Assembly (NCBI GenBank): GCA_003963305.1 | Contig: RXJR01000011.1 | Location: 79,152 to 143,151, forward strand | DNA length: 64,000 bases | From: Candidatus Melainabacteria bacterium | GTDB taxonomy: Bacteria > Cyanobacteriota > Vampirovibrionia > Obscuribacterales > Obscuribacteraceae | Direction: 5' to 3' | Shown: piece after piece, positions 8,545-47,675 of the stretch | How positions within the stretch are numbered: position 1 is the first letter of the stretch | Layout of the letters: every line of letters starts with the position of its first letter | Made by a program: the position numbers and the translations under genes | Notes under the pieces: generated by a model | The model's input: only the letters and a program-made list of their open reading frames with translations | Database searches by the model: none | Told to the model about the DNA's origin: nothing

Positions 8545-8546
8545 CT

Positions 8547-8700
8547 AATGGACCGCCCGCGTCCCGCGGGCTTCGCGTAATGGAGCGCCCGCGTCCCGCG
8601 GGCACGTGTAATGGACCGCCCGCGTCCCGCGGGCACGTGTTATGGACCGCCCGCGTCCCGCGGGCACGTGTTATGGAGCGCCCGCGTCCCGCGGGCTTTC
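8547..8700. repeat. Five tandem 31-bp GC-rich palindromic repeats
   Basis: Five units start at 8547, 8578, 8609, 8640 and 8671, an exact 31-base period. Each unit begins T(A/T)ATGGA(C/G)CG and contains the self-complementary core GCCCGCG-TCC-CGCGGGC, so every copy can fold as a short hairpin. Units differ at only a few positions (ACGTGT or TTCGCG at the junctions). There are no unique spacers, so it is not CRISPR. It sits between the 3' ends of purK and the convergent gene at 8728-9276, where it could act as a bidirectional terminator or transcription boundary. That role is inference. Confidence 0.9.
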
Positions 8701-8727
8701 AAAAGGGTTGAATAATCCTTCCCATCT

Positions 8728-28571: not shown

Positions 28572-28979
28572 TTATCTGACACGATAAACGTACTGTCGCG
28601 CAAACGCTTGAGAGTCGCGCAGCCACAAATTGCCGTCCTGATCAACAGATGGGGTAAAGTTGAGCTGCTTCTTCGGCTGTCCCGCAGAAGTCAACAAGAA
28701 CCACTTGCCATCAGAACTCAGGCGCCAGATCGATTTGTCTGGAAAAGTAATTTCGCGCAACCGCATCGATCGTTCATCGTATCGATATTCAAAAGTATGT
28801 CCCGTAGGACGAACAACGCGTAGCACTTGTCCATCTGCACCAGATATGACACTGGTTCCATCAGATAGTATTTGCAAGAAGTTACCGAGCTCGACGTCAT
28901 CGACGGCTCTCGGATATACCATTCTTACGGTGCCATCATCATGGAGCGCCGCAAGGAATCCTGAAACTTCAGTGCTCAT
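28572..28979 (-). CDS. Small YD/Rhs-like repeat protein, 135 residues
   Basis: The protein is built of short beta-hairpin-like units with DG or PD turns: LHDDGTVRMVYP, LSDGTSVISGADGQ, HTFEYRYDERSMR, ITFPDKSIWRLSSDGK, VDQDGNLWLRD. These resemble YD/Rhs-type repeats and those of the giant protein at 51183-57896 and its neighbour at 58232. It is far too short for a whole Rhs shell, so it may be a small family member or a cut-down remnant. ATG 28979 has AGGTGA upstream. The next 318 bases upstream contain no gene, only a GTCGAC-containing inverted repeat at about 29249-29274. Confidence 0.65.
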   Translation of the reverse strand: MSTEVSGFLAALHDDGTVRMVYPRAVDDVELGNFLQILSDGTSVISGADGQVLRVVRPTGHTFEYRYDERSMRLREITFPDKSIWRLSSDGKWFLLTSAGQPKKQLNFTPSVDQDGNLWLRDSQAFARQYVYRVR

Positions 28980-29297
28980 CGATATCACCTGGATAGTATT
29001 GAAAATTCATATACACCGCTTAACAAGCTTGTTTGAATTGTAGTGGTTGTTCGGATCGATTTGAATGCAGAGGTTTTTTAACTCTACTGCGCAGTTGTAT
29101 AAATTGCGTAGACTACACGCTCAGGCGGGATGTGATGAGAATCTTCTCCACTAAGCGATATATCGGAACAAAGCCCAAAAGATATTTTGCAGCGAGTTAG
29201 CTGAAAAGTAAGGTCGGGCAAGCCTGAAAATCATGAAACATCAAACAAGGAAGTCGACTCGACGAAAGTCGACTCCATCGTTGATTCGTTCAAAAGC

Positions 29298-30079: not shown

Positions 30080-30161
<82 letters not shown>

Positions 30162-30202
30162 ACCAAACTTATCCACAACAAATTGGAATTACGCGTTACT
30201 TG

Positions 30203-30880
30203 CTATTCGGCAGGCGTAATTCGTTGACAAGCAAGGCAGGCAGCGCGCGCCAGTACGGCAATCAGTGCAAAGCGAACGCGATCGACCGGATCCAGGCTGT
30301 TATCGAATTGAAATAACATGCCTTGGACAGAATTTTCCTCTAGACAAACCTGAAGGAAACCCACGACTACTGATGCCGTTCGCTCCTCGTAACGCTCGAC
30401 TTGAGCGCCTTTCTTCACCAACCAGCACTCATTGAACACTGACTCGAAAAGCGCTGAGGCATCGTAAAGCTCGACGCGCAGCAAGTTTGAGATTCGAGCG
30501 CCAGTCCAACTCCAGCCGGCTATCGCAACGGCGCCATATCGAATTTCGTCAAGGAACCACGAAGATTGTATGTCATCCGCTGCCGGTAAAGTGAGAGTGA
30601 CATCGCTAGGAAATGTAAGCAGCAGAAAACGCGAATCGGCGATGTCCCCTTCATTAAGCACTGCTGAAGTCAGACGTTTTGCCCAGCGTTTCTCCAAACG
30701 CTCCAATACTTCCTTTTGGCGTTCACCGCTGGCCCAATCTGAATTCGACGCTTTCAGTACGCCGAATGCGGCAACAACATCGTACATGATGCGAGACTTA
30801 CCCAAAGCTGCCAACACAATCCGAATGTGTTCTTGGAAGAGACCAGCTGTACCCGGGCGATTCGAGGTTTGATTGCTCAT
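30203..30880 (-). CDS. Unrecognised ~220-residue family, copy A
   Basis: 225 residues, mostly helical, no signal peptide. It is a clear relative of the proteins at 31766-32419 and 32584-33240: all share a D-x-A-(D/N)-(S/A)-x-LLL segment, then DE(I/L/V)-R-(Y/F)-x-(A/S)-(V/I)-A near the middle, a RISNLLR-like helix, ECWLVKKG, and an LARAACLACQR-like end. Copy A has WFLDEIRYGAVAIA. I do not know the family or its function. It stands as a separate unit with its own hairpin after the stop. Confidence 0.7.
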   Translation of the reverse strand: MSNQTSNRPGTAGLFQEHIRIVLAALGKSRIMYDVVAAFGVLKASNSDWASGERQKEVLERLEKRWAKRLTSAVLNEGDIADSRFLLLTFPSDVTLTLPAADDIQSSWFLDEIRYGAVAIAGWSWTGARISNLLRVELYDASALFESVFNECWLVKKGAQVERYEERTASVVVGFLQVCLEENSVQGMLFQFDNSLDPVDRVRFALIAVLARAACLACQRITPAE

Positions 30881-31010
30881 TGAAAGTCACTTTCTTACTA
30901 TGCAGATGATGATTTGCAAGAGACAGACAAACAGACAAACTCAACTTCGATATTTCCCCCTTCCATTTCGATCTTTGCAGAATCTTGATTGCAATCAGAG
31001 ATGTCGACCA

Positions 31011-31637
31011 CTATTTGATGACGTTACCTCCGATTTTGCATCCATCCGACGTAATTCCCTTGTCGATGTCTGCCTCCGAGAGCAGTCGGCAATAGATAGA
31101 GCTGGCGATAGTCTCGAACACTTCATCCGGCATAAATGCATCATGTCGAGAGAAAAAACGGAACGTTCGCATCCCGCTGTCCCGTGCAGAATTGAACTCT
31201 GCGGCAGGCGCCAAGCGAATCGGTTCACATGTTGTCGTCGTGATTGCATTCAACTGTGTCTCAGATAAGATTGGCGCCACCTGACCGGGTAGTTCCATAC
31301 CAAGCAACTCTTCGCGCATTTCTCTGCGAGGATCGATCTCGAAATATCGAGAATCTTGGCTAGCAAAGAAGCTCATAACTTGCTGAATGTACCGAGCCTC
31401 AACCTGAAATCGAGCATCATTGCCATCCTCGAATGACGTTGCGTTGAATTCGCGAACCAAAAATTGCATACCGAGGGATGTAAGCTCACCACCGCCGCCG
31501 AGACTCTTGTAAACAGCAGCACCGGTTTTGGCAGAGCCTCGATTCAACAATGACAGATACATAGGAGCGTGTCTGTTACTACTTATCTGCCTTATCAAGA
31601 CAGCGTAGGAGAACCGAACCAGACCTTGCAATTCCAT
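31011..31637 (-). CDS. NUDIX-like protein resembling SMODS-associated NUDIX
   Basis: The 208-residue protein begins GLVRFSYAVLIRQ, continues with MYLSLLNRGSA, a GGGGELTSLG glycine stretch, YFEIDPRREMREELLG near residue 105-120, and an unrecognised C-terminal half. This order (RFSY start, glycine loop, RE-x-REEL helix) recalls the SMODS-associated NUDIX family, linked by others to nucleotide-based conflict systems. The REMREELLG box has one residue more than the standard NUDIX box. GAAGGA lies upstream of the ATG. Family call is from memory of the pattern, not a search. Confidence 0.5.
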   Translation of the reverse strand: MELQGLVRFSYAVLIRQISSNRHAPMYLSLLNRGSAKTGAAVYKSLGGGGELTSLGMQFLVREFNATSFEDGNDARFQVEARYIQQVMSFFASQDSRYFEIDPRREMREELLGMELPGQVAPILSETQLNAITTTTCEPIRLAPAAEFNSARDSGMRTFRFFSRHDAFMPDEVFETIASSIYCRLLSEADIDKGITSDGCKIGGNVIK

Positions 31638-31715
31638 GTTGTTCTTCCTTCTATAGGTTTACATACTGGTCAACAGAATTAGAATTGAATTGGCATAACG
31701 TGCTCGTTTAACTGA

Positions 31716-31747
31716 CTGCGCACCAACCGAACAGTATTGGTGCGCAG
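31716..31747 (-). terminator. Perfect 11-bp hairpin
   Basis: CTGCGCACCAA and its exact complement enclose 10 bases, 19 bases past the stop of the gene at 31766. No T run follows on the - strand, so it may protect the mRNA end rather than terminate alone. Confidence 0.6.
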
Positions 31748-31765
31748 CCGTTCAAGAAACGCAGA

Positions 31766-32419
31766 TCAGGAGGACTCATGACGCTGACACGAAAGTACTG
31801 CGTAACGAGCCAACGCAGAGATAGCCGCAAATTTTAACCGTTTTGGGTAAGAAGGCTCCGCCGAGCGCAGGATGCGCTCAACCGAGAACTCATCCAAGCC
31901 ACGCTGCAAAGCTTCCACGACCCGACCGACAAACACTCGGTCTACCGATATGATGGCTGCACAGGTAACACGCACGCCGGTCGGAACGAGATACGATTCG
32001 TTCCAAATTGCATCCAGTAGCACGGAGTTCGCAAGGTCATGGCGAAGCAACTGCGAAATGCGCCCATCTTGCATCGATACAGCCGACAGTGCTACGGCCG
32101 CATAACGCAGCTCGTCAGCGAAGAGAACGGAGTCGAGATTGGCTTCCTTCGCATCTGTCAGAACAACACGGACCGAGTTAGAACCGAGCAGAAGGCTCGC
32201 ATCGGCAAAATCATCATCCGTCACAGTAGTCGACACCGACACATCGGGGTGTCGGCCGACAAGTCTGTGCATACAGGCACTACGTTTATCATCGTAGCTC
32301 CAGTGAGGGCAGTTTGCAGCGAGATATTGCAGACTGCCGACGACAGCAGCGAAACTAGTAGCATCCGCAGATTTCAACAGTGCTTTGATCTGGGTTTGAA
32401 CGAGCTGATTAGAGAACAT
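31766..32419 (-). CDS. Unrecognised ~220-residue family, copy B
   Basis: 217 residues, relative of copy A (30203) and copy C (32584). Shared landmarks are DFADASLLLG, LFADELRYAAVALSA, RISQLLRHDL, NESYLVPTGVRV and a C-terminal FAAISALARYAVLSCQR, which matches copy A's LARAACLACQR closely. AAAGGA lies upstream of the ATG. The N-terminal third is much less conserved among the copies. No function can be named. Confidence 0.7.
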   Translation of the reverse strand: MFSNQLVQTQIKALLKSADATSFAAVVGSLQYLAANCPHWSYDDKRSACMHRLVGRHPDVSVSTTVTDDDFADASLLLGSNSVRVVLTDAKEANLDSVLFADELRYAAVALSAVSMQDGRISQLLRHDLANSVLLDAIWNESYLVPTGVRVTCAAIISVDRVFVGRVVEALQRGLDEFSVERILRSAEPSYPKRLKFAAISALARYAVLSCQRHESS

Positions 32420-32553
32420 TTCGAACTTCCTTTATTGCTTTCATTGGACGGATAAGGAATTAACATCACCCAACTGCTGTTTTCGAACTGAATCTCGCTC
32501 CTTTCTTTGGAAAAGTAGACGCTAAATGAATAGTCACAATCCACCTTCCTACA

Positions 32554-32583
32554 TAAACAAGCACCGGTTTCGGTGCCTGTTTA
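32554..32583 (-). terminator. Terminator hairpin after copy C
   Basis: Arms 32554-32566 and 32571-32583 pair over 13 positions with one mismatch; the loop is GTTT. It touches the stop codon of the gene at 32584, and its last arm is T-rich on the - strand. Its core GCACCGGTTTCGGTGC differs by one base from a hairpin at 50907-50922. Confidence 0.75.
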
Positions 32584-33240
32584 TTACTGACCCTGAATAT
32601 CTATCAAAGCCTGACGAGCCAAGCCCGCAACGCAAGCGCAACGGAGCTTCAACACTGATTGCTCCATCGAATCTGCAATGTCCGGCAAAATCCCATGAAC
32701 TGGATATTGAGCGAGTCTTCGGTTGAGCAGATCCGTGGTTCCCCGCACGAAAGAGCGTTCCGCTTCTAACAGTCCGGTATAAACCGCATTCTTGCCGGTC
32801 TTAACGAAAACTGCTTCACCGAAAGCTCTCTCCAACATTGATGCTCCACCGGGGTGGGGAAGCAATAGCGCTTGCACGCGCATAGTGGACAAAGTGGCTG
32901 CCGCCAGAGCAATCGAGGCAAAACGCAACACTTCATCAGATGGCACAGAATTCTGCGCCTGTTCTTCAGCTCCATCAATTACCCGCACCTGCTCCAGAGG
33001 TACAGTGAACAAGAGCAGAAATGCGTTCGCTCTATCCGCTTCGGTTACGTCACACCGGCACAGGTCATCGGTCCACTTTTGCTGCAACTCGTTCAGTGCC
33101 GCACCTGGCGCAGCAGCCGATGCCCACAGAGACTGACGACTGGCAAGTGCCAACAGCCCGCCGTAAACAGAAGCAAATTGTTGCGACAGTGAGGCATCTG
33201 TCATCATTTTGCTAATTAGTTCAAATACGTCATCGAACAT
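32584..33240 (-). CDS. Unrecognised ~220-residue family, copy C
   Basis: 218 residues when started at ATG 33240 (MFDDVFEL), which matches the size of copies A and B; the frame is open upstream to 33486, but the extra residues would overlap a hairpin and look non-coding. Landmarks are DRANAFLLLFTVP, SDEVLRFASIALAA, MRVQALLLPH, EAVFVKTGKNAV and a C-terminal LRCACVAGLARQALIDIQ. It is the most diverged of the three. Function unknown. Confidence 0.68.
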   Translation of the reverse strand: MFDDVFELISKMMTDASLSQQFASVYGGLLALASRQSLWASAAAPGAALNELQQKWTDDLCRCDVTEADRANAFLLLFTVPLEQVRVIDGAEEQAQNSVPSDEVLRFASIALAAATLSTMRVQALLLPHPGGASMLERAFGEAVFVKTGKNAVYTGLLEAERSFVRGTTDLLNRRLAQYPVHGILPDIADSMEQSVLKLRCACVAGLARQALIDIQGQ

Positions 33241-33287
33241 TTTTCTCTCACTTTCTCGATAAAATAGAATCGAACGAAGACAAGATG

Positions 33288-33325
33288 CTCGAGCGACTAT
33301 GTGATGAACCCCACAGTCGCTCGAG
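33288..33325 (-). terminator. Perfect 11-bp hairpin after the HD gene
   Basis: CTCGAGCGACT (33288-33298) and its exact complement (33315-33325) have a 16-base loop. The hairpin begins 10 bases past the HD gene's stop. It lacks a clear T run. Confidence 0.6.
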
Positions 33326-33334
33326 GCGAAACAA

Positions 33335-34264
33335 TCAGTTGTGCTTGACCCACCTTCCGGCAGAGGCAGACCACGTCCAGAGAACAGCACAGACATCGGG
33401 TGACGAGTACGCAGCAATCCTGAAGGAGAAACCCAGGTACTTGCACGCCTCTGCGCAACATTGAAATGCTTCAAAGAACCAATCAACCTGCAGTATCTGC
33501 GGAAGAGAGCATACCCTTTCGTCTAAAACGAGATTAAGGACGATTGCGCCTTTCGGACTGTCATCACAATCAAGAGGATCGACAGTCAACTTTGCTTGCT
33601 GAATTGCATAGGTAGCAAAATTGTTTCTCGAATCTTGATTCGCCGCAAAGTGAAACCAGACACGTGACAGCCCAAGCCATCGCAGCATCGAGATCCACCA
33701 GACCTTGTTATCCCGCACCCGCTCACGATCGCCGACACATTTGTCGGCTAGAACAAGTATGGACAGCGTACGCAAGCACGCTTCGTATACTGATCGCTCT
33801 TCATCGCTACGACAGTCAGGCATTTCAAGGCCGTGTTCTCTAAGTACGCCACTGGTGCGATGATAACGAATCGGATACGACACCAATCGTCTGTGCTTCT
33901 CTGGTACATCCATCTCAGCGAGTATTCGGTCCATCTCAATCGCACCCTGAATATGATGAACCTCAGCTACGGATCCATCAGACGCAACCTCCGTTATACC
34001 TTTACACAAATCATGAAACTGACAAGCGATAGGCACTGAATACTCTTTCTCCACGCGAGTGAATGTGCCCGGGTAGAACCTCTCTATCTCTGCAACCAAT
34101 GCTAAACCCATACGCATGACCGGCTTACCATGTCGTTCCAGATCATGAATGGTCTTACCGCGACTCCTGCTATCCGCAATTGTGTATAGGTCCTTGATGT
34201 CGCTCCGACTGTCGAGAGTTGGGAAAATCAATCCCAACTGCTCATCTGCTACTTCCGATGACAC
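33335..34264 (-). CDS. HD-domain metal-dependent phosphohydrolase
   Basis: HD-domain enzymes cleave phosphate from nucleotides or cyclic dinucleotides using His/Asp-bound metals. In this 309-residue protein the signature CQFHDLCKGI puts the HD pair at 84-85; further likely ligands are H103/H104 in EVHHIQGA, H135 in IRYHRTS and D174 in LVLADKCVGDR. The C-terminal ~110 residues are an unrecognised extension (LQVDWFFEAFQCCAEAC, ending WSASAGRWVKHN). The substrate is unknown. The NUDIX-like gene in the same block suggests a nucleotide theme. Confidence 0.78.
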   Translation of the reverse strand: MSSEVADEQLGLIFPTLDSRSDIKDLYTIADSRSRGKTIHDLERHGKPVMRMGLALVAEIERFYPGTFTRVEKEYSVPIACQFHDLCKGITEVASDGSVAEVHHIQGAIEMDRILAEMDVPEKHRRLVSYPIRYHRTSGVLREHGLEMPDCRSDEERSVYEACLRTLSILVLADKCVGDRERVRDNKVWWISMLRWLGLSRVWFHFAANQDSRNNFATYAIQQAKLTVDPLDCDDSPKGAIVLNLVLDERVCSLPQILQVDWFFEAFQCCAEACKYLGFSFRIAAYSSPDVCAVLWTWSASAGRWVKHN

Positions 34265-34352
34265 AGAAAATCCTTTCGTATGCAGTCGTCCCCTGAATTG
34301 GAGCGGCTGCCACTCTCAAATTGAGATTCGAACGAATTGATAGGGATGAAAA

Positions 34353-34379
34353 CCAGTGACAAAACGCTGTTGCCACTGG
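34353..34379 (-). terminator. Hairpin after the 162-residue gene
   Basis: CCAGTG-a-CAA pairs with TTG-c-CACTGG around a 7-base loop, 14 bases past the stop at 34393. One mismatch. Confidence 0.5.
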
Positions 34380-34392
34380 ATGGTGAAAGTAC

Positions 34393-34881
34393 TTACCTAG
34401 AAGATTGCTTTACCTTGATTTTGTTTGGCATTGCGAGCAGCCAAATCAGATAGAACTCTTCCTCGATTTGAACAACATGTGGCACTCCAGTGAATGTGTA
34501 GTAATTTTCCCCGGGTGTGGGGAAGTCCCAACAGAAATAGGAATTACCATGAATCGCGCGAATTACACACGACACACGCTTCATGCCACCAGTGCAGAGG
34601 GCCGCAAGCACATCACCGTATTTGCTTTGAGCGATAGCAAAATTGCCACTGTCAAAACTTGCACGGCAACCTTGAAAATGAAAGATGGCACTGTCGAGAT
34701 TTTCCGAAGGCATTGCAACGCTCAACCGAATCAGCAAATCGTGAGCACTAGAAAGAGCGACGAAGGCTTCTGCCGTAGAGGCAGAGTCGAGCGGAGGATT
34801 AAGCATCGCCAGCTCACCTAATGCCCCTGCTAATATCGATGAAGACGGATTCGCTCCCAAGAACTTTATATGGTAGGACAT
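34393..34881 (-). CDS. Hypothetical protein, 162 residues
   Basis: Not recognised; no signal peptide or membrane helix. The N-terminal half looks helical (ILAGALGELAMLNPPL, AFVALSSAHDLLIRLSV), the C-terminal half strand-rich (VSCVIRAIHGNSYFCWDF, YYTFTGVPHVVQIEEE). GAGGAA lies upstream of the ATG. It is one of the evenly spaced single genes of the 30-36 kb block. Confidence 0.62.
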   Translation of the reverse strand: MSYHIKFLGANPSSSILAGALGELAMLNPPLDSASTAEAFVALSSAHDLLIRLSVAMPSENLDSAIFHFQGCRASFDSGNFAIAQSKYGDVLAALCTGGMKRVSCVIRAIHGNSYFCWDFPTPGENYYTFTGVPHVVQIEEEFYLIWLLAMPNKIKVKQSSR

Positions 34882-34942
34882 GATCTTGATTCCTCATTTC
34901 TACTCAGACTGAACATGGTTTGCTTAGATTTGAACAGGACTG

Positions 34943-34985
34943 AGTGCATGACTTTCTGCGACGGCGGTCCAGGAAGTCATGCACT
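34943..34985 (-). terminator. Perfect 12-bp hairpin
   Basis: AGTGCATGACTT and its exact complement enclose 19 bases, with further partial pairing inside. It lies 39 bases past the stop of the gene at 35024. No T run follows. Confidence 0.6.
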
Positions 34986-35023
34986 GACTTAAGGTTGGGG
35001 GCTCAGCTAGCTCTCACGGAGCG

Positions 35024-35635
35024 TCAGAGCCATCGCGCTTTACGCAACAAAGACTCAGGGTCCAGAGGTTTTATCAGCAGAAGCGGTTCCGTGTGCAGAA
35101 CGACCAACGTGCGATCCTGCTGTGCCTCGCCAAGGAGGGCGCTCGTGTACTGCAAGCTGAATCCGATTCTTTCAAGAAAAGCACTGATACGCACCAGATG
35201 ATCAAGCGAACAATCGCCGAACTTAACTACACGTGGACAATCGTTATAGTAAGGTCCTCTGGCGTGCAACTCTGTGAGAGTCCGCCCAACCAGCGAAAAG
35301 AATGGTTCTCCCAGTTTGACCATGCGATCAAGCAGTTCCGTCGCCTGAGTGACGTCACCGTTAGCCGGTAGTTTATCGTCAAACCCCAGAATCTGTGCGG
35401 AAAACGTCAGCACCCGAACTGCATCCTGCACGCTGTCATCACGCCACGAGTAATTTGCCTGTTGAATCTTCAATCCTTCCACAATGTCGTTCGGAGAACC
35501 AACGAAACCGAGCAACTGAAATTCACACCACTCGAACAGACGAACGGATCTGCTCACGACGTCGTAAGCAGATCCAAATTCACGATTTGCAGTGGCAACA
35601 GTTTGCTGCCACCGACTGGTTGATCTGTCATTCAT
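35024..35635 (-). CDS. Hypothetical protein, 203 residues
   Basis: Not recognised and not obviously related to copies A-C. Mostly helical; notable segments are FEWCEFQLLGFVGSPND, HARGPYYNDCPRVVKFGD and a C-terminal strand pair TLVVLHTEPLLLIKPLD. AAAGGAC lies upstream of the ATG. It is the right-most - strand gene of the block. Confidence 0.62.
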   Translation of the reverse strand: MNDRSTSRWQQTVATANREFGSAYDVVSRSVRLFEWCEFQLLGFVGSPNDIVEGLKIQQANYSWRDDSVQDAVRVLTFSAQILGFDDKLPANGDVTQATELLDRMVKLGEPFFSLVGRTLTELHARGPYYNDCPRVVKFGDCSLDHLVRISAFLERIGFSLQYTSALLGEAQQDRTLVVLHTEPLLLIKPLDPESLLRKARWL

Positions 35636-36171: not shown

Positions 36172-36528
36172 TTCACAGCGCAAAGCAGTCTTCAGACACC
36201 TTGATTTCATGCCAGAATTAAACGTAGTTTGCAAACACAATCCTCTCCTCATTTTCAGAGCGAACCCGCACAGTAATCTCACCACTATCAAGCCAACAAT
36301 ATGAATTCAACGACCGCTGAACTGAGGTTGTTGAATTGTGCCGGGGTGAAGCTCACTCCTTAATCTGGAAAAACCAGGTTAGTCGCACCTCGATAACATC
36401 CACGAATTTCTTTTCGCACGTGCAGCACGAACATCTCCCCGGTGTTCGCGCTGCTATTTCGTTTCGACCGCCGATCAGGCAGGTCACAAATTCATTCTGC
36501 TGACAACAGCCAAACAGAAAGGTTTCAA

Positions 36529-38109
36529 ATGAACATCAAGACCGAAACGAATGGGATTGGGTCAGGGAGCTTCGTCACGCCGGGTCTAGACAACCTGCCG
36601 AATGGGATCCTCAAGTACCGTTACGACCGGAGCAATGTGACTGCTTCGCATGTCCATATAGGATTGGGATCGTTTGCGCTTGCTCACATCGCCGCTATCG
36701 CTGATAAGTACATGTCTGAAACTGGAAATCTCGATTGGGGGATCATCGGGGTCGCGATGCACAATCGTGGCACCATAGATGGACTCAAGAAAGCACAGAA
36801 TCGGATCGTTCTCGTTCAAAGGGAAAATGAAACCGAGACCGTTTCTGTGCTTGGTTCGCTACTGGAGACAATATTCGTGCCGGACGATCCAGCACTGCTT
36901 ATCAAAACCATAGCCAGGCCCATGACCAAACTGTTGACGTTCACAGTCACATCCAGCGGACACTACATGCGCGATCAAACGGGAACGCTGAATATGACAG
37001 CCACTGAAATCGTGCATGACCTTGATTATCGAGGTGATCCGAGTGATTCTCCCAAAACGATCTATTGGGTGATTGCAAAAGCACTGGAAGAGCGAATGAA
37101 ACTAGAGGATCAAAGTGGCGTTCCGCTGCCTCTAACGGTCCTTTCGCTCGACAACATTCCCACCAATTCGAAGGCTCTGAAGAAAGCCGCAATACAGTAC
37201 ATCAGAGCCAGTTACGAAAACCCGCACAAATTGCTCGAATGGATTGAAAATCGAGTCGACTTTCGGGTCACCGTAGTGGATCGGATTACGCCCAAGGATA
37301 CAGTCGAGTTTCACGATGAATTTGTAGCCCAGTACGGATTCGACCCAACGGTACTGATTGCGACCGAAAAGAAGTGGCAACTCGCCGTTGAGAAAGGTCG
37401 CTTCTGGGTTCCAGAATGGACAAAGATAGGAGTAAAGGAAGTTGAGGACATCCAGAAGATCTGGCAAGCAAAGTTCTTCGGGCTCAATGCAGCCCACCAG
37501 ATTCTAGGAACCTTTGGACTTCGGCTCGGACTGCAATTCATTCACGAAGCGATGGAAATACCGGAACTGGCAGAACTGGTCGCTCTTTTCCACCGCGAGC
37601 TAGGGACTTTCCTCGGATACGATGTGATGAAAGAGTACGGAGAAACCGTTCGCAGCCGATTCGCCGATCGGGCACTCAAGGACCAAAACCGGCGCGTAGT
37701 CAAGGACGCACGGAAGAAAGCATCGGAGCGAGTTGCCTACGCGTTCGAGATGGTGCTCGAAAACAGCAATGGTGCTATCTTAGCTCGGGCGGCAACGTTT
37801 ACTTTCGCTGGCTGGTTATTGAACATCGACTGCGTCGATGAGCGAGGAATCGAGTTTGTACAAGACGATCCAGATCTGGTGCGCCTCAAAGAAATCTCTG
37901 ACGACATCGCACAGTGGCTGCGCGGAGAGCAAGAGGACCGTGGAGTCGCGCACATTCTTCGTCACATCGGTGAACTATTCGGTGACAACCGCATGATCAT
38001 GCTTGCCAGCAAAAGCAGCTTCGTACAAGAATTGGCATGGTCGCTCAGAGAACTAGCGGCGTCCGGAACTATTGTCGCAACGCGAAAGCTGCTCAGCAGC
38101 TCACGCTAA
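36529..38109 (+). CDS. Mannitol dehydrogenase family oxidoreductase
   Basis: Polyol-specific long-chain dehydrogenase, 526 residues. The N-terminal Rossmann part has VHIGLGSFALAH and LDWGIIGVAMHNRGT; the typical LTVLSLDNIPTNSKAL and TVVDRITPKDT follow. The catalytic pattern K-x4-N-x2-H is seen at K315, N320 and H323. Members oxidise or reduce mannitol, mannitol-1-phosphate, fructuronate or tagaturonate; which applies cannot be told. ATG 36529 (MNIKTETNG) is preferred over a start at 36442, whose extra residues look non-coding. A HAD phosphatase gene follows. Confidence 0.88.
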   Translation: MNIKTETNGIGSGSFVTPGLDNLPNGILKYRYDRSNVTASHVHIGLGSFALAHIAAIADKYMSETGNLDWGIIGVAMHNRGTIDGLKKAQNRIVLVQRENETETVSVLGSLLETIFVPDDPALLIKTIARPMTKLLTFTVTSSGHYMRDQTGTLNMTATEIVHDLDYRGDPSDSPKTIYWVIAKALEERMKLEDQSGVPLPLTVLSLDNIPTNSKALKKAAIQYIRASYENPHKLLEWIENRVDFRVTVVDRITPKDTVEFHDEFVAQYGFDPTVLIATEKKWQLAVEKGRFWVPEWTKIGVKEVEDIQKIWQAKFFGLNAAHQILGTFGLRLGLQFIHEAMEIPELAELVALFHRELGTFLGYDVMKEYGETVRSRFADRALKDQNRRVVKDARKKASERVAYAFEMVLENSNGAILARAATFTFAGWLLNIDCVDERGIEFVQDDPDLVRLKEISDDIAQWLRGEQEDRGVAHILRHIGELFGDNRMIMLASKSSFVQELAWSLRELAASGTIVATRKLLSSSR

Positions 38110-38201: not shown

Positions 38202-39068
38202 ATGATTACACAACAAGAACGAGAGAAACTGGCTCTGGCAATGTCCCAGAGCGGAACAGGCGATCTTGATCGAGTTCTCGCATTCGCAGATCAGGCAATC
38301 GTGCCTGTTGAAAATATCCTCCAGCTCATTCAAGTGCGAGCAACACACCCGGCGCAAATCTGGGACATGGACGGAACGCTAGCGGACTCCGAGCCGGTAG
38401 CATTTTCGGCTTGCGCGGCGGTGATGAATCGTCTGGGCAAGCGAAAAGGACATGATTTTGGGTTCACCGGTCCGTCTTTGCTCGAGAAATATGTAGGACG
38501 ATCATTCTCGGCTATGGTCAGAGAGCTTCAAATGATCTACAACTTCGATATCAGCGAATCCGAACTTCGATACTATGCCGACATGGAAAAACGGATGGTC
38601 ATGAATCACTTCAGAAATTGCGGACTAGGTGCTACCCCCGGCAGCAAGGATCTGGTCCAGATAAGCATCGCTGTAGGTTTCCGCATTGCCATTGCCAGCA
38701 GCAGCACACTACCTCGCATCCTGCTATGCAAGAGATTGCTGGGCTTGGACTGCATCTCGGACACGCTATGCTTTAGCGGCACTGATATGGGGAAATCAAA
38801 ACCGGCACCAGATGTCTATTTGAAAGCCGCTGCTGCCTTAGATGCCGCACCAGACCAATGCATCTCCTTCGAAGACGAAGAACCCGGTGTGCAAGCAGCT
38901 CATGCTGCAGGAATCGGTATGAAGCTAGGCATTATCGTCCTTACACCTCCAGCTCGGAGAACCGACCATATAAATCGGCTGCGCGTGAAAAATGTGGATG
39001 CAGTAGCAGAAGACTTCAGGGAGATGCCGGCTCTGATGTATCGACTCTCGCAAAACTCAGTCTTGTAA
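38202..39068 (+). CDS. HAD-superfamily phosphatase/phosphoglucomutase-like protein
   Basis: 288 residues. The first ~50 are an unrecognised helical lead. Motif I is WDMDGTLADSE (D55 and D57), motif II ASSST, motif III lysine in GKSKPAPDVYLKA and motif IV SFEDEEPGVQAA, with a helical cap between: a beta-phosphoglucomutase-like HAD enzyme acting on a sugar phosphate. AAAGGAA precedes the ATG. Next to a mannitol-dehydrogenase-family gene, mannitol-1-phosphate is an attractive substrate; in Acinetobacter MtlD the two activities are joined in one protein. That assignment is inference. Confidence 0.85.
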   Translation: MITQQEREKLALAMSQSGTGDLDRVLAFADQAIVPVENILQLIQVRATHPAQIWDMDGTLADSEPVAFSACAAVMNRLGKRKGHDFGFTGPSLLEKYVGRSFSAMVRELQMIYNFDISESELRYYADMEKRMVMNHFRNCGLGATPGSKDLVQISIAVGFRIAIASSSTLPRILLCKRLLGLDCISDTLCFSGTDMGKSKPAPDVYLKAAAALDAAPDQCISFEDEEPGVQAAHAAGIGMKLGIIVLTPPARRTDHINRLRVKNVDAVAEDFREMPALMYRLSQNSVL

Positions 39069-44912: not shown

Positions 44913-47675
44913 ATGAGTGGAATCTATCAAGGAAAATTTTCGACGCCTGATTTACGAGTCGACACAAACATTAGTCTAGCTTCCTCACTCAAACTGAGCG
45001 CAGAAGTCCAGGGAATGTTTAGCCCCATAGCAACTGATGCGTCAAAAATTAGTTCAGGAGCTTTTTTGGACATTCCGTCTATCTACACAAAAGAAGCTCT
45101 CAATGACGCCACCGACCGTGGCGCCGCATGGGACGACAAGAGTTATGCCGGCAAGGTTCCAACCGTCGACCTGTACAACTATTTTCTTAGCAACGGTTTT
45201 ACTCCAGCACAAGCGGCTGGGATTTTAGGAAATATACACACGGAGTCCCGATTCAGCACGAGTGCATACAACCCAAGTGAAAACGCCATAGGGCTATGTC
45301 AATGGGAGGGAGGGCGAAAAACAAACCTGGAAAATTTCGCCAAACAGAAACACATGTCCATATATGACTGGCACTTGCAAGCCGATTTCATTATGGAAGA
45401 ACTTAAAACCAGTGAAAGCAATGCCTACGACCAACTCATGAAAGCAACCACACCAGAGGAAGCTGCGCAAGTTTTTCAATCGCAATACGAACGCAGCAAA
45501 TACCTTGGCGATCGTCCTCAAAACGCCAGATATTACTTTGACCAGCTTTCTGCGAGCGCATCGGCACCAGCGTTGGATTCTACACAATCAATTGAACAAT
45601 TGCTTATGAGCGGCATGTTTCATCCCTCGCTCAACGCATTGCTGCAAACCGGACTGGAACTGGGGAAAGACGCTCTGGTCAAGCTTTTCAATGGCACAGA
45701 CTTTGATGCCAGCAAATTACTAAATTTTCTTCCCGTGCATCCACTGGATGAGGTGGCAAACCTGGAGTTGCAGAATCAACCGAAGATCATTCTAAGAGAA
45801 AAAGGCTTTGATCCTACTGATCAACAACAACCGGCGGACTTCATCATCAACAAAGACGGAACAATCATCTGCAATCACATTCCTGAGGTCGGACAGAAGG
45901 AAATCATCATAGAAGATGTTCGTTCGGAGGGCGATTTCCTTTCTGGTGCTTCTCCTGAGCAGAAGGGTGCAGCCGCTGCTTTAGTCGCATATTTGCAACA
46001 AAGACTAGCGTTAACGGACTCAACAGGCGTACACATACCTGAGGTTCAAGATCCGGAAGGATTGCTACCTGAGCCATTGCCTGATGCATCTGCCAGCAAC
46101 AACTCATCCGACTCCAACGGAACTGGGAACCCAGGTGAAAACGGCAGTGGCGGATATGGCGGAAGCGGCGGTGGCAGTGACAGTGGGTATCCCGGCTCCG
46201 GCACCCAATCACAAACTCTGAATAGACTGGATGACGCAGGCGATGGTCAGATCACAGAGAATCAGGCAAGCGATCTCTTTGCACACCCAGACAATGAACC
46301 ATCAATTCCCGGCGAATCAAATCAAATGCTCGCTTTAAAAGATGTGACGGGCAGCCTGGAGACAAAAAGCTTTCCGGGAGATGCCTATGCGGCGGTGCTT
46401 GACCGTGGCGACGATGGATATGGAGTGGGTAGATTCGGTTTCACCGCATATGCATACCTTGGTTGGTTAGACGGATTTTCTGATGCAGACTTCGACGATT
46501 TGGAGGATATGGAAGATCCTCTCCCTGCATCGAAAGACCACAAAACTGCGCCGGGCAAACTCCCTCATGGAACTGTGAAGCGCCTTAGAGCCATCAAGAA
46601 AAAATTTGATGCCTTCAAGGATAAGGTCATCAAAGACGGTCATGGACCTGGCGGTGAGAACACATCTCAGATGACAGACAAAGATCTCATGAAGCTCTTC
46701 CTCAATGCGGAAGCGAAGACCGCTCTGCCGCCCAATGCAACAGATGAAGACAAACTCGATCAGGCATTTATTCAGTCACTCTCACAGCTTGCAAACAAAG
46801 GTGACAAACCTGACTCTGACGAACTAACTCAGTTTTACCCACCTGAGTTGCAAGAGATCATGGCGAACCAACTGGTCAACAAATATGCATATCAGTCGGC
46901 ACAACTGCACGATGGCAAATTCCAACCGAGTGATGTAGTTCTCGCCATGCATCTGGGCTATTTCCCGAGTGAGAAAGATATCGCAAAATTTGCCGACAGC
47001 ATCGTTCATCCAGCAGACCGCGGCTATCCCCTTGCCTACAAGGCGCGTGAGAATCCTAATGCCCCTGTCGCGTGGTCGGAACTGGGTGGAACCCCTGTAG
47101 GGGACCCAGAGTCGTATTTCATTACGCAATTCAGAAGCAAATACAATCCTGATGTGAGTGACGCCCAAGAGCTTCACAATGCCGATTGCGGACCCACATC
47201 TCTAGCAATGCTCCTGGTTCACTACGGTCGAGTCCAAATGCCTGACAATCGAGAGTCTCTGATCGAAACAGTAGAATCGCAGTTCATGGGCGCAAACATT
47301 CATAACTCCAACGGATACAACCTGCAACAACTAAAGAAAGGCGCCGAGGCGGCCAATTTGCATGCCGATCGCATTAACGGTCTCGCCGCAGTAGACAAGG
47401 CCTTCGAGGACAACCCAAATGCTTCAGTAATACTCGTCGGACAACCGCGGCACGCATGGCAAGACGATCCTCGCCAGACTTCCGAGACCTACGTCGACAG
47501 CGGCAGTTGCAATCACATTGTCGTTATAGCAGGAAAAACCAGCAATGGAGACTACATTCTGCTAGATCCGCTCAGCCTGAGTGGTCCCCGCATAGTCACA
47601 AGACAACAAATTCAACGATACATTGCCGACGGATTGAATGGTGAGGGCGGGACAGGCCTGGTTGTATATCCCTAA
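44913..47675 (+). CDS. Phage-type lysozyme plus C39-like peptidase protein, 920 residues
   Basis: Residues about 85-210 match the phage tail lysozyme fold: YFLSNGFTPAQAAGILGNI, then HTESRF with the likely catalytic E111, and GLCQWEGGR. Residues about 740-915 match a C39-type cysteine peptidase: ADCGPTSLAMLLVHYG (C759), SCNHIVVIAG (H868) and YILLDP (D885), a complete triad. Between them are a Gly/Ser-rich linker (about 395-430), a weak EF-hand-like loop (DDAGDGQITENQ) and an unknown helical part. There is no signal peptide, so export would need a specialised system. Likely target is peptidoglycan, own or foreign. Confidence 0.78.
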   Translation: MSGIYQGKFSTPDLRVDTNISLASSLKLSAEVQGMFSPIATDASKISSGAFLDIPSIYTKEALNDATDRGAAWDDKSYAGKVPTVDLYNYFLSNGFTPAQAAGILGNIHTESRFSTSAYNPSENAIGLCQWEGGRKTNLENFAKQKHMSIYDWHLQADFIMEELKTSESNAYDQLMKATTPEEAAQVFQSQYERSKYLGDRPQNARYYFDQLSASASAPALDSTQSIEQLLMSGMFHPSLNALLQTGLELGKDALVKLFNGTDFDASKLLNFLPVHPLDEVANLELQNQPKIILREKGFDPTDQQQPADFIINKDGTIICNHIPEVGQKEIIIEDVRSEGDFLSGASPEQKGAAAALVAYLQQRLALTDSTGVHIPEVQDPEGLLPEPLPDASASNNSSDSNGTGNPGENGSGGYGGSGGGSDSGYPGSGTQSQTLNRLDDAGDGQITENQASDLFAHPDNEPSIPGESNQMLALKDVTGSLETKSFPGDAYAAVLDRGDDGYGVGRFGFTAYAYLGWLDGFSDADFDDLEDMEDPLPASKDHKTAPGKLPHGTVKRLRAIKKKFDAFKDKVIKDGHGPGGENTSQMTDKDLMKLFLNAEAKTALPPNATDEDKLDQAFIQSLSQLANKGDKPDSDELTQFYPPELQEIMANQLVNKYAYQSAQLHDGKFQPSDVVLAMHLGYFPSEKDIAKFADSIVHPADRGYPLAYKARENPNAPVAWSELGGTPVGDPESYFITQFRSKYNPDVSDAQELHNADCGPTSLAMLLVHYGRVQMPDNRESLIETVESQFMGANIHNSNGYNLQQLKKGAEAANLHADRINGLAAVDKAFEDNPNASVILVGQPRHAWQDDPRQTSETYVDSGSCNHIVVIAGKTSNGDYILLDPLSLSGPRIVTRQQIQRYIADGLNGEGGTGLVVYP

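Follow-up and report, generated by a model that had tools for sequence, protein, structure and literature searches.

We tentatively explain the seven small open reading frames at positions 30203-35635 of the window, the whole 64,000-nucleotide stretch analysed here, as an accessory block that is specific to its lineage, diverges fast and encodes two probable nucleotide or phosphate hydrolases together with the probably helical proteins A, C and D; we put the chance of this explanation a little below even. The window belongs to a genome (G000) of 7.48 Mb in 44 contigs, from a cyanobacterial relative that is non-photosynthetic. As the initial annotation stated, the ORF list places all seven reading frames on a single strand, the minus strand. 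In order of position, they encode copy A of a triplicated family, a NUDIX protein, copies C and D of the same family, an HD protein, and proteins F and G. The accessory-block explanation is supported by the domains of the NUDIX and HD proteins, by the adjacency of their genes and the shared gene order in the relative G001, by the divergence of the HD clade as compared with the ordinary HDs, and by the high identity of the core beside the slot. Further support comes from the slot of only a few kb in the relative G002, the salvage-type neighbours of the HD relatives, and hairpins that follow most genes in 29.3-39.1 kb and are lacking in the rest of the variable part of the window.

The region from 0.2 to 25.5 kb of the window is collinear with 60-91.5 kb of contig C14 in G001, with an identity mostly of 80-94% and a lowest value of 66%. 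The block sits in a variable chromosomal slot, which spans about 67 kb in G000 and a few kb in its congener G002, and has a different filling in G001, likewise a congener, that runs to the end of the contig. The length of about 67 kb follows from the comparison with G002, where a few kb separate the core-ending gene from genes that are found at window-relative 92.8-100 kb in G000. Two genes on the plus strand flank the block and also lie beside the block of G001, encoding a mannitol-dehydrogenase-like protein (MDH-like; 36442-38109; Pfam E=4e-24) and a HAD-family hydrolase (38202-39068; Pfam E=2.8e-17; 36% to that of G001). The order NUDIX-HD-MDH-HAD is common to G000 and G001 with identities of 22-42%, versus mostly 80-94% for the core, which can reflect fast change or exchange with distant lineages. 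Judged from these sequence comparisons, the block would thus either diverge much faster than the core or have been exchanged between divergent lineages, the pattern that would be expected under changing or conflict-type selection.

In G001, the NUDIX and HD genes are immediate neighbours, 308 bp apart, with gene orientations different from those in the window. The initial annotation had proposed a survey for repeated linkage of the triplicated family with these two genes; the NUDIX-HD adjacency is found again in G001, so that the refuting case named there, neighbours conserved in no relative, did not arise. The triplicated family does not take part in this linkage, being absent from G001 and from the other genomes of the family searched. 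That a single relative shows the linkage, with differing orientations, counts against the accessory-block explanation, and so does the absence of A, C and D from G001, since these proteins are then not tied to NUDIX and HD. Protein G (35024-35635, minus strand, 203 aa) resembles G001:C14:150884-151468 weakly and at a consistent position; phmmer, run on a small set, gave E=0.28, and hhalign gave P=0.0035. No family was found for protein F (34393-34881, minus strand, 162 aa) by profile and database searches. On reading, the rest of the slot contains thiamine-synthesis-like genes and response regulators, so the variability may reflect rearrangement alone. No tRNA was seen in the window, and no integrase on reading its ORF list, so nothing here marks the slot as mobile. 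A 920-aa protein encoded at 44913-47675 combines a phage-tail lysozyme domain with a C39-like peptidase domain, and has a 33% relative in the same slot of G001.

The NUDIX protein (31011-31637, minus strand, 208 aa) is assigned as a soluble stand-alone SMODS-associated NUDIX-domain protein from its Pfam and PADLOC matches, its G001 homologue, its motif and its hydropathy. It matches Pfam Sa_NUDIX (PF18167) at 31.1 bits (E=2.9e-7), above the Pfam cut-off of 25 bits, indicating that the identification as a NUDIX-like protein of the SMODS-associated type was right. The match covers positions 2-105 of the 199 profile positions, i.e. the first half, and the C-terminal half of the protein is conserved with G001 only. 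The RExxEE core is kept and the canonical full Nudix box pattern is unmatched, so that catalysis by this protein is not assured. The best PADLOC models are those of effectors with two transmembrane helices (2TM). No likely transmembrane segment was found in the window protein, the top hydropathy over 19 residues being 0.78. Among 50 genomes of the family a relative is present only in G001, with 32% identity; neither a two-row NUDIX profile nor that of Pfam found another match in the phylum sample (386 and 373 genomes), and viral contigs and plasmids yielded no relatives. The predicted structure is unusable (pLDDT 37.3). The G001 protein (L021:7186-8196) has its NUDIX domain fused to about 124 extra N-terminal residues, which are soluble and without a family match.

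Cap16 is a CBASS membrane effector with a NUDIX domain (PMC10419184). The window NUDIX resembles Cap16 in the Sa_NUDIX domain match and the RExxEE core, but differs from it in the lack of transmembrane helices, the lack of a cyclase nearby and the match to the first half of the profile only. The membrane part of Cap16 is N-terminal, whereas the G001 NUDIX has a soluble stretch at this place. A CBASS/Cap16 module is not supported, because the NUDIX protein lacks the two transmembrane helices and no CD-NTase gene adjoins it. The window has no SMODS cyclase, and the one SMODS cyclase match in the genome lies on another contig, C26, where it has a 4TM effector of its own. This locus (G000:C26:86000-99500; L048: 5152-6982) holds a CBASS-type pair, in which an oligonucleotide cyclase is combined with a 4TM effector; a gene next to them may be PtuB-like.

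The suggestion that the block could be a defence module found no defence evidence, as the PADLOC match concerns the NUDIX domain only. A defence system is possible; the rapid divergence fits a conflict role, without establishing one. An anti-phage module in particular, such as one built on a Cap16-like effector together with new partners, would agree with the matches of the NUDIX protein to Pfam and to the PADLOC 2TM effector models, with the rapid divergence and with the multiplied genes. We nevertheless regard it as improbable, since the 2TM part is missing, the only CBASS cyclase of the genome is located elsewhere and no other block protein has a PADLOC match.

The HD protein (33335-34264, minus strand, 309 aa, GTG start) keeps the H/HD/H/H/D positions and is sister to the HD protein of G001. 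The window copy alone has no Pfam match; at the level of the family, 11 of the 14 aligned members match Pfam HD, and the metal-ligand columns H40, H45, H84 D85, H103, H135 and D174 are invariant across the alignment, in agreement with the HD identification made at the start. With the family profile, PDB 2pq7 (E=1e-7) and exopolyphosphatases were retrieved. The family resembles the HD-domain phosphohydrolases (PF01966; PDB 2pq7; Ppx/GppA domain III) in its invariant metal ligands and its family-level matches, but the window copy alone falls below Pfam and is grouped in a divergent clade that also contains the copies of G001 and G008. The block HD is a probable HD phosphohydrolase, with hydrolytic activity predicted from the fold and the kept metal motifs.

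The tree joins the block HD of G000 with that of G001 in a clade of their own (98/96), places the G008 copy beside this pair as its sister, and sets these copies apart from the remaining HDs. The block HDs of G000 and G001 are separated by about 2 changes per site, whereas about 0.17 separate the ordinary HD of G000 from that of G002. In other relatives, the HDs outside the divergent clade are MerR-linked. The block-type HD of G008 (L022:7983-8834) adjoins a MerR-like regulator, in the place that the ordinary HD takes in other relatives. In the two genomes examined with Pfam, HD-family relatives share their stretch with a protein of the purine-nucleoside-phosphorylase type and with a phosphopentomutase-like metalloenzyme, and these salvage-type neighbours give a hint toward nucleotides. 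No HD relatives were found in viral contigs.

These neighbours also bear on a purely metabolic reading, in which the HD, NUDIX, MDH-like and HAD proteins would dispose of phosphorylated metabolites and sugars or salvage them, without any part in conflict. The MDH-like and HAD genes travel with NUDIX and HD in G001, HD-family relatives have nucleoside-salvage-type genes and a glycogen-debranching enzyme in their vicinity, and in other genomes, too, HAD relatives occur together with MDH-like genes. However, such fast divergence is unexpected for metabolic genes and known defence effectors carry NUDIX domains of the Sa_NUDIX type; we consider this reading rather unlikely.

Copies A (30203-30880, 225 aa), C (31766-32419, 217 aa) and D (32584-33240, 218 aa from ATG), all on the minus strand, are true paralogues under protein-level constraint. 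By BLASTP, A shares 34% identity with C (E=1e-24) and 30% with D (E=3e-11), and the Smith-Waterman scores among the three copies (202, 177 and 131) exceed the maxima of 500 shuffles (76, 62 and 53). Codon position 2 is 51-56% identical and position 3 is near chance level, indicating old duplicates with constraint on the protein. The paralogy noticed earlier is therefore borne out. The proposed signatures hold in part: the DE-x-RY core and the CQR end are found in A and C, but D, the most diverged copy, has DEVLRF and ends in LIDIQGQ. A longer reading frame of D from TTG would overlap the HD gene.

A match of the triplicated family to a known housekeeping protein was a further point raised earlier, and profile searches in Pfam, NCBIfam, PADLOC and PHROGs returned none reaching the cut-off. 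The family was found only in the source genome among 50 genomes of its family, i.e. in none of the 49 others, and no relative was found in the 59 relatives searched. Viral contigs searched with the A/C/D profile and phages searched with copy C gave no relatives; pattern scans of genome contigs and viral contigs, which can miss distant relatives, also found none, and no likeness to a known system emerged. Three individual matches were judged to be due to chance, namely a carbonic anhydrase in the PDB for A1 (E=7e-4), blaOXY for copy A (E=0.005) and DinB for copy D (E=0.15). An internal repeat is unsupported (hhalign probability 0.4), and the family has no similarity to the N-terminus of the G001 NUDIX. 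The AlphaFold model is poor (pLDDT 43.7, pTM 0.37), and a Foldseek search with it returned nothing. The A, C and D proteins are probably soluble, mostly helical and may bind a partner or ligand.

Small multiplied proteins could also be duplicated immunity-like proteins in a polymorphic toxin immunity or orphan array. A 138-aa ORF just outside the block (28572-28988) has a weak RHS-repeat match, which is in keeping with this idea; this match does not reach the Pfam cut-off, a toxin domain was not recognised, and A, C and D match no immunity family, which makes such an array hardly probable.

Based on these comparisons, we propose a working scheme for the accessory block. The block would be a lineage-specific one occupying the variable slot, in which the HD protein and the soluble Sa_NUDIX protein most likely act as hydrolases of a phosphorylated nucleotide or a nucleotide-like signal, as suggested by their folds and kept metal motifs, and the A, C and D paralogues might bind a partner or ligand. 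A more specific version, a novel small nucleotide-signal system within this lineage in which Sa_NUDIX and HD set or erase a signal, A, C and D act as sensors or effectors and conflict with phages or rivals drives the divergence, is very improbable. If the module is real, a defence-associated NUDIX domain would be used without a membrane part or a cyclase and paired with an HD hydrolase, and A, C and D would constitute a new protein family. For fast divergence at a site that keeps its place in the chromosome, the slot makes a clear test case.

The block had been described as made of single-gene units, which is supported by the predicted 3' hairpins that follow each of the seven genes except NUDIX. 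These minus-strand hairpins are located after A (30123-30202, z -3.3 to -3.8), C (31686-31765, z about -3.7), D (32504-32583, z about -4.9), HD (33255-33334, z about -4.6), F (34313-34392) and G (34944-35023, z -3.8 to -4.5). The tested genes from 29.3 to 39.1 kb have such hairpins, with z from -2.3 to -4.8, except NUDIX (z +2.2), whereas the variable-slot genes tested outside this range in the window are without them. By eye, a clear U-tract is present only at the hairpin after F, which is intrinsic-terminator-like; most of the block hairpins may therefore not be intrinsic terminators. From the predicted RNA folds, the genes would be expressed mostly as separate units or be parted by intercistronic hairpins. 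As NUDIX alone is without a 3' hairpin, NUDIX and A may form one co-transcribed unit.

The hairpins bear in two ways on the view that there is no functional module, and that a rearrangement hotspot has gathered orphan and accessory genes with the NUDIX-HD adjacency retained merely from shared ancestry of the slot. Most genes having their own 3' hairpin would fit a hotspot, as would the very different slot content among the three congeners and the finding of A/C/D and of G in the source genome only. On the other hand, the limitation of this architecture to 29.3-39.1 kb, the NUDIX-HD-MDH-HAD order kept despite large divergence and the protein-level constraint on A, C and D argue against it; we hold a hotspot without a module to be unlikely, with an appreciable chance all the same. 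The hairpins and same-strand genes also suggested an integron-like cassette array, which was rejected as the intergenic stretches share no repeat by eye and the next genes start well past the hairpins. Elsewhere in the window, at 8545-8727 and just after 14588, the fold output revealed GC-rich repeated hairpins following core genes.
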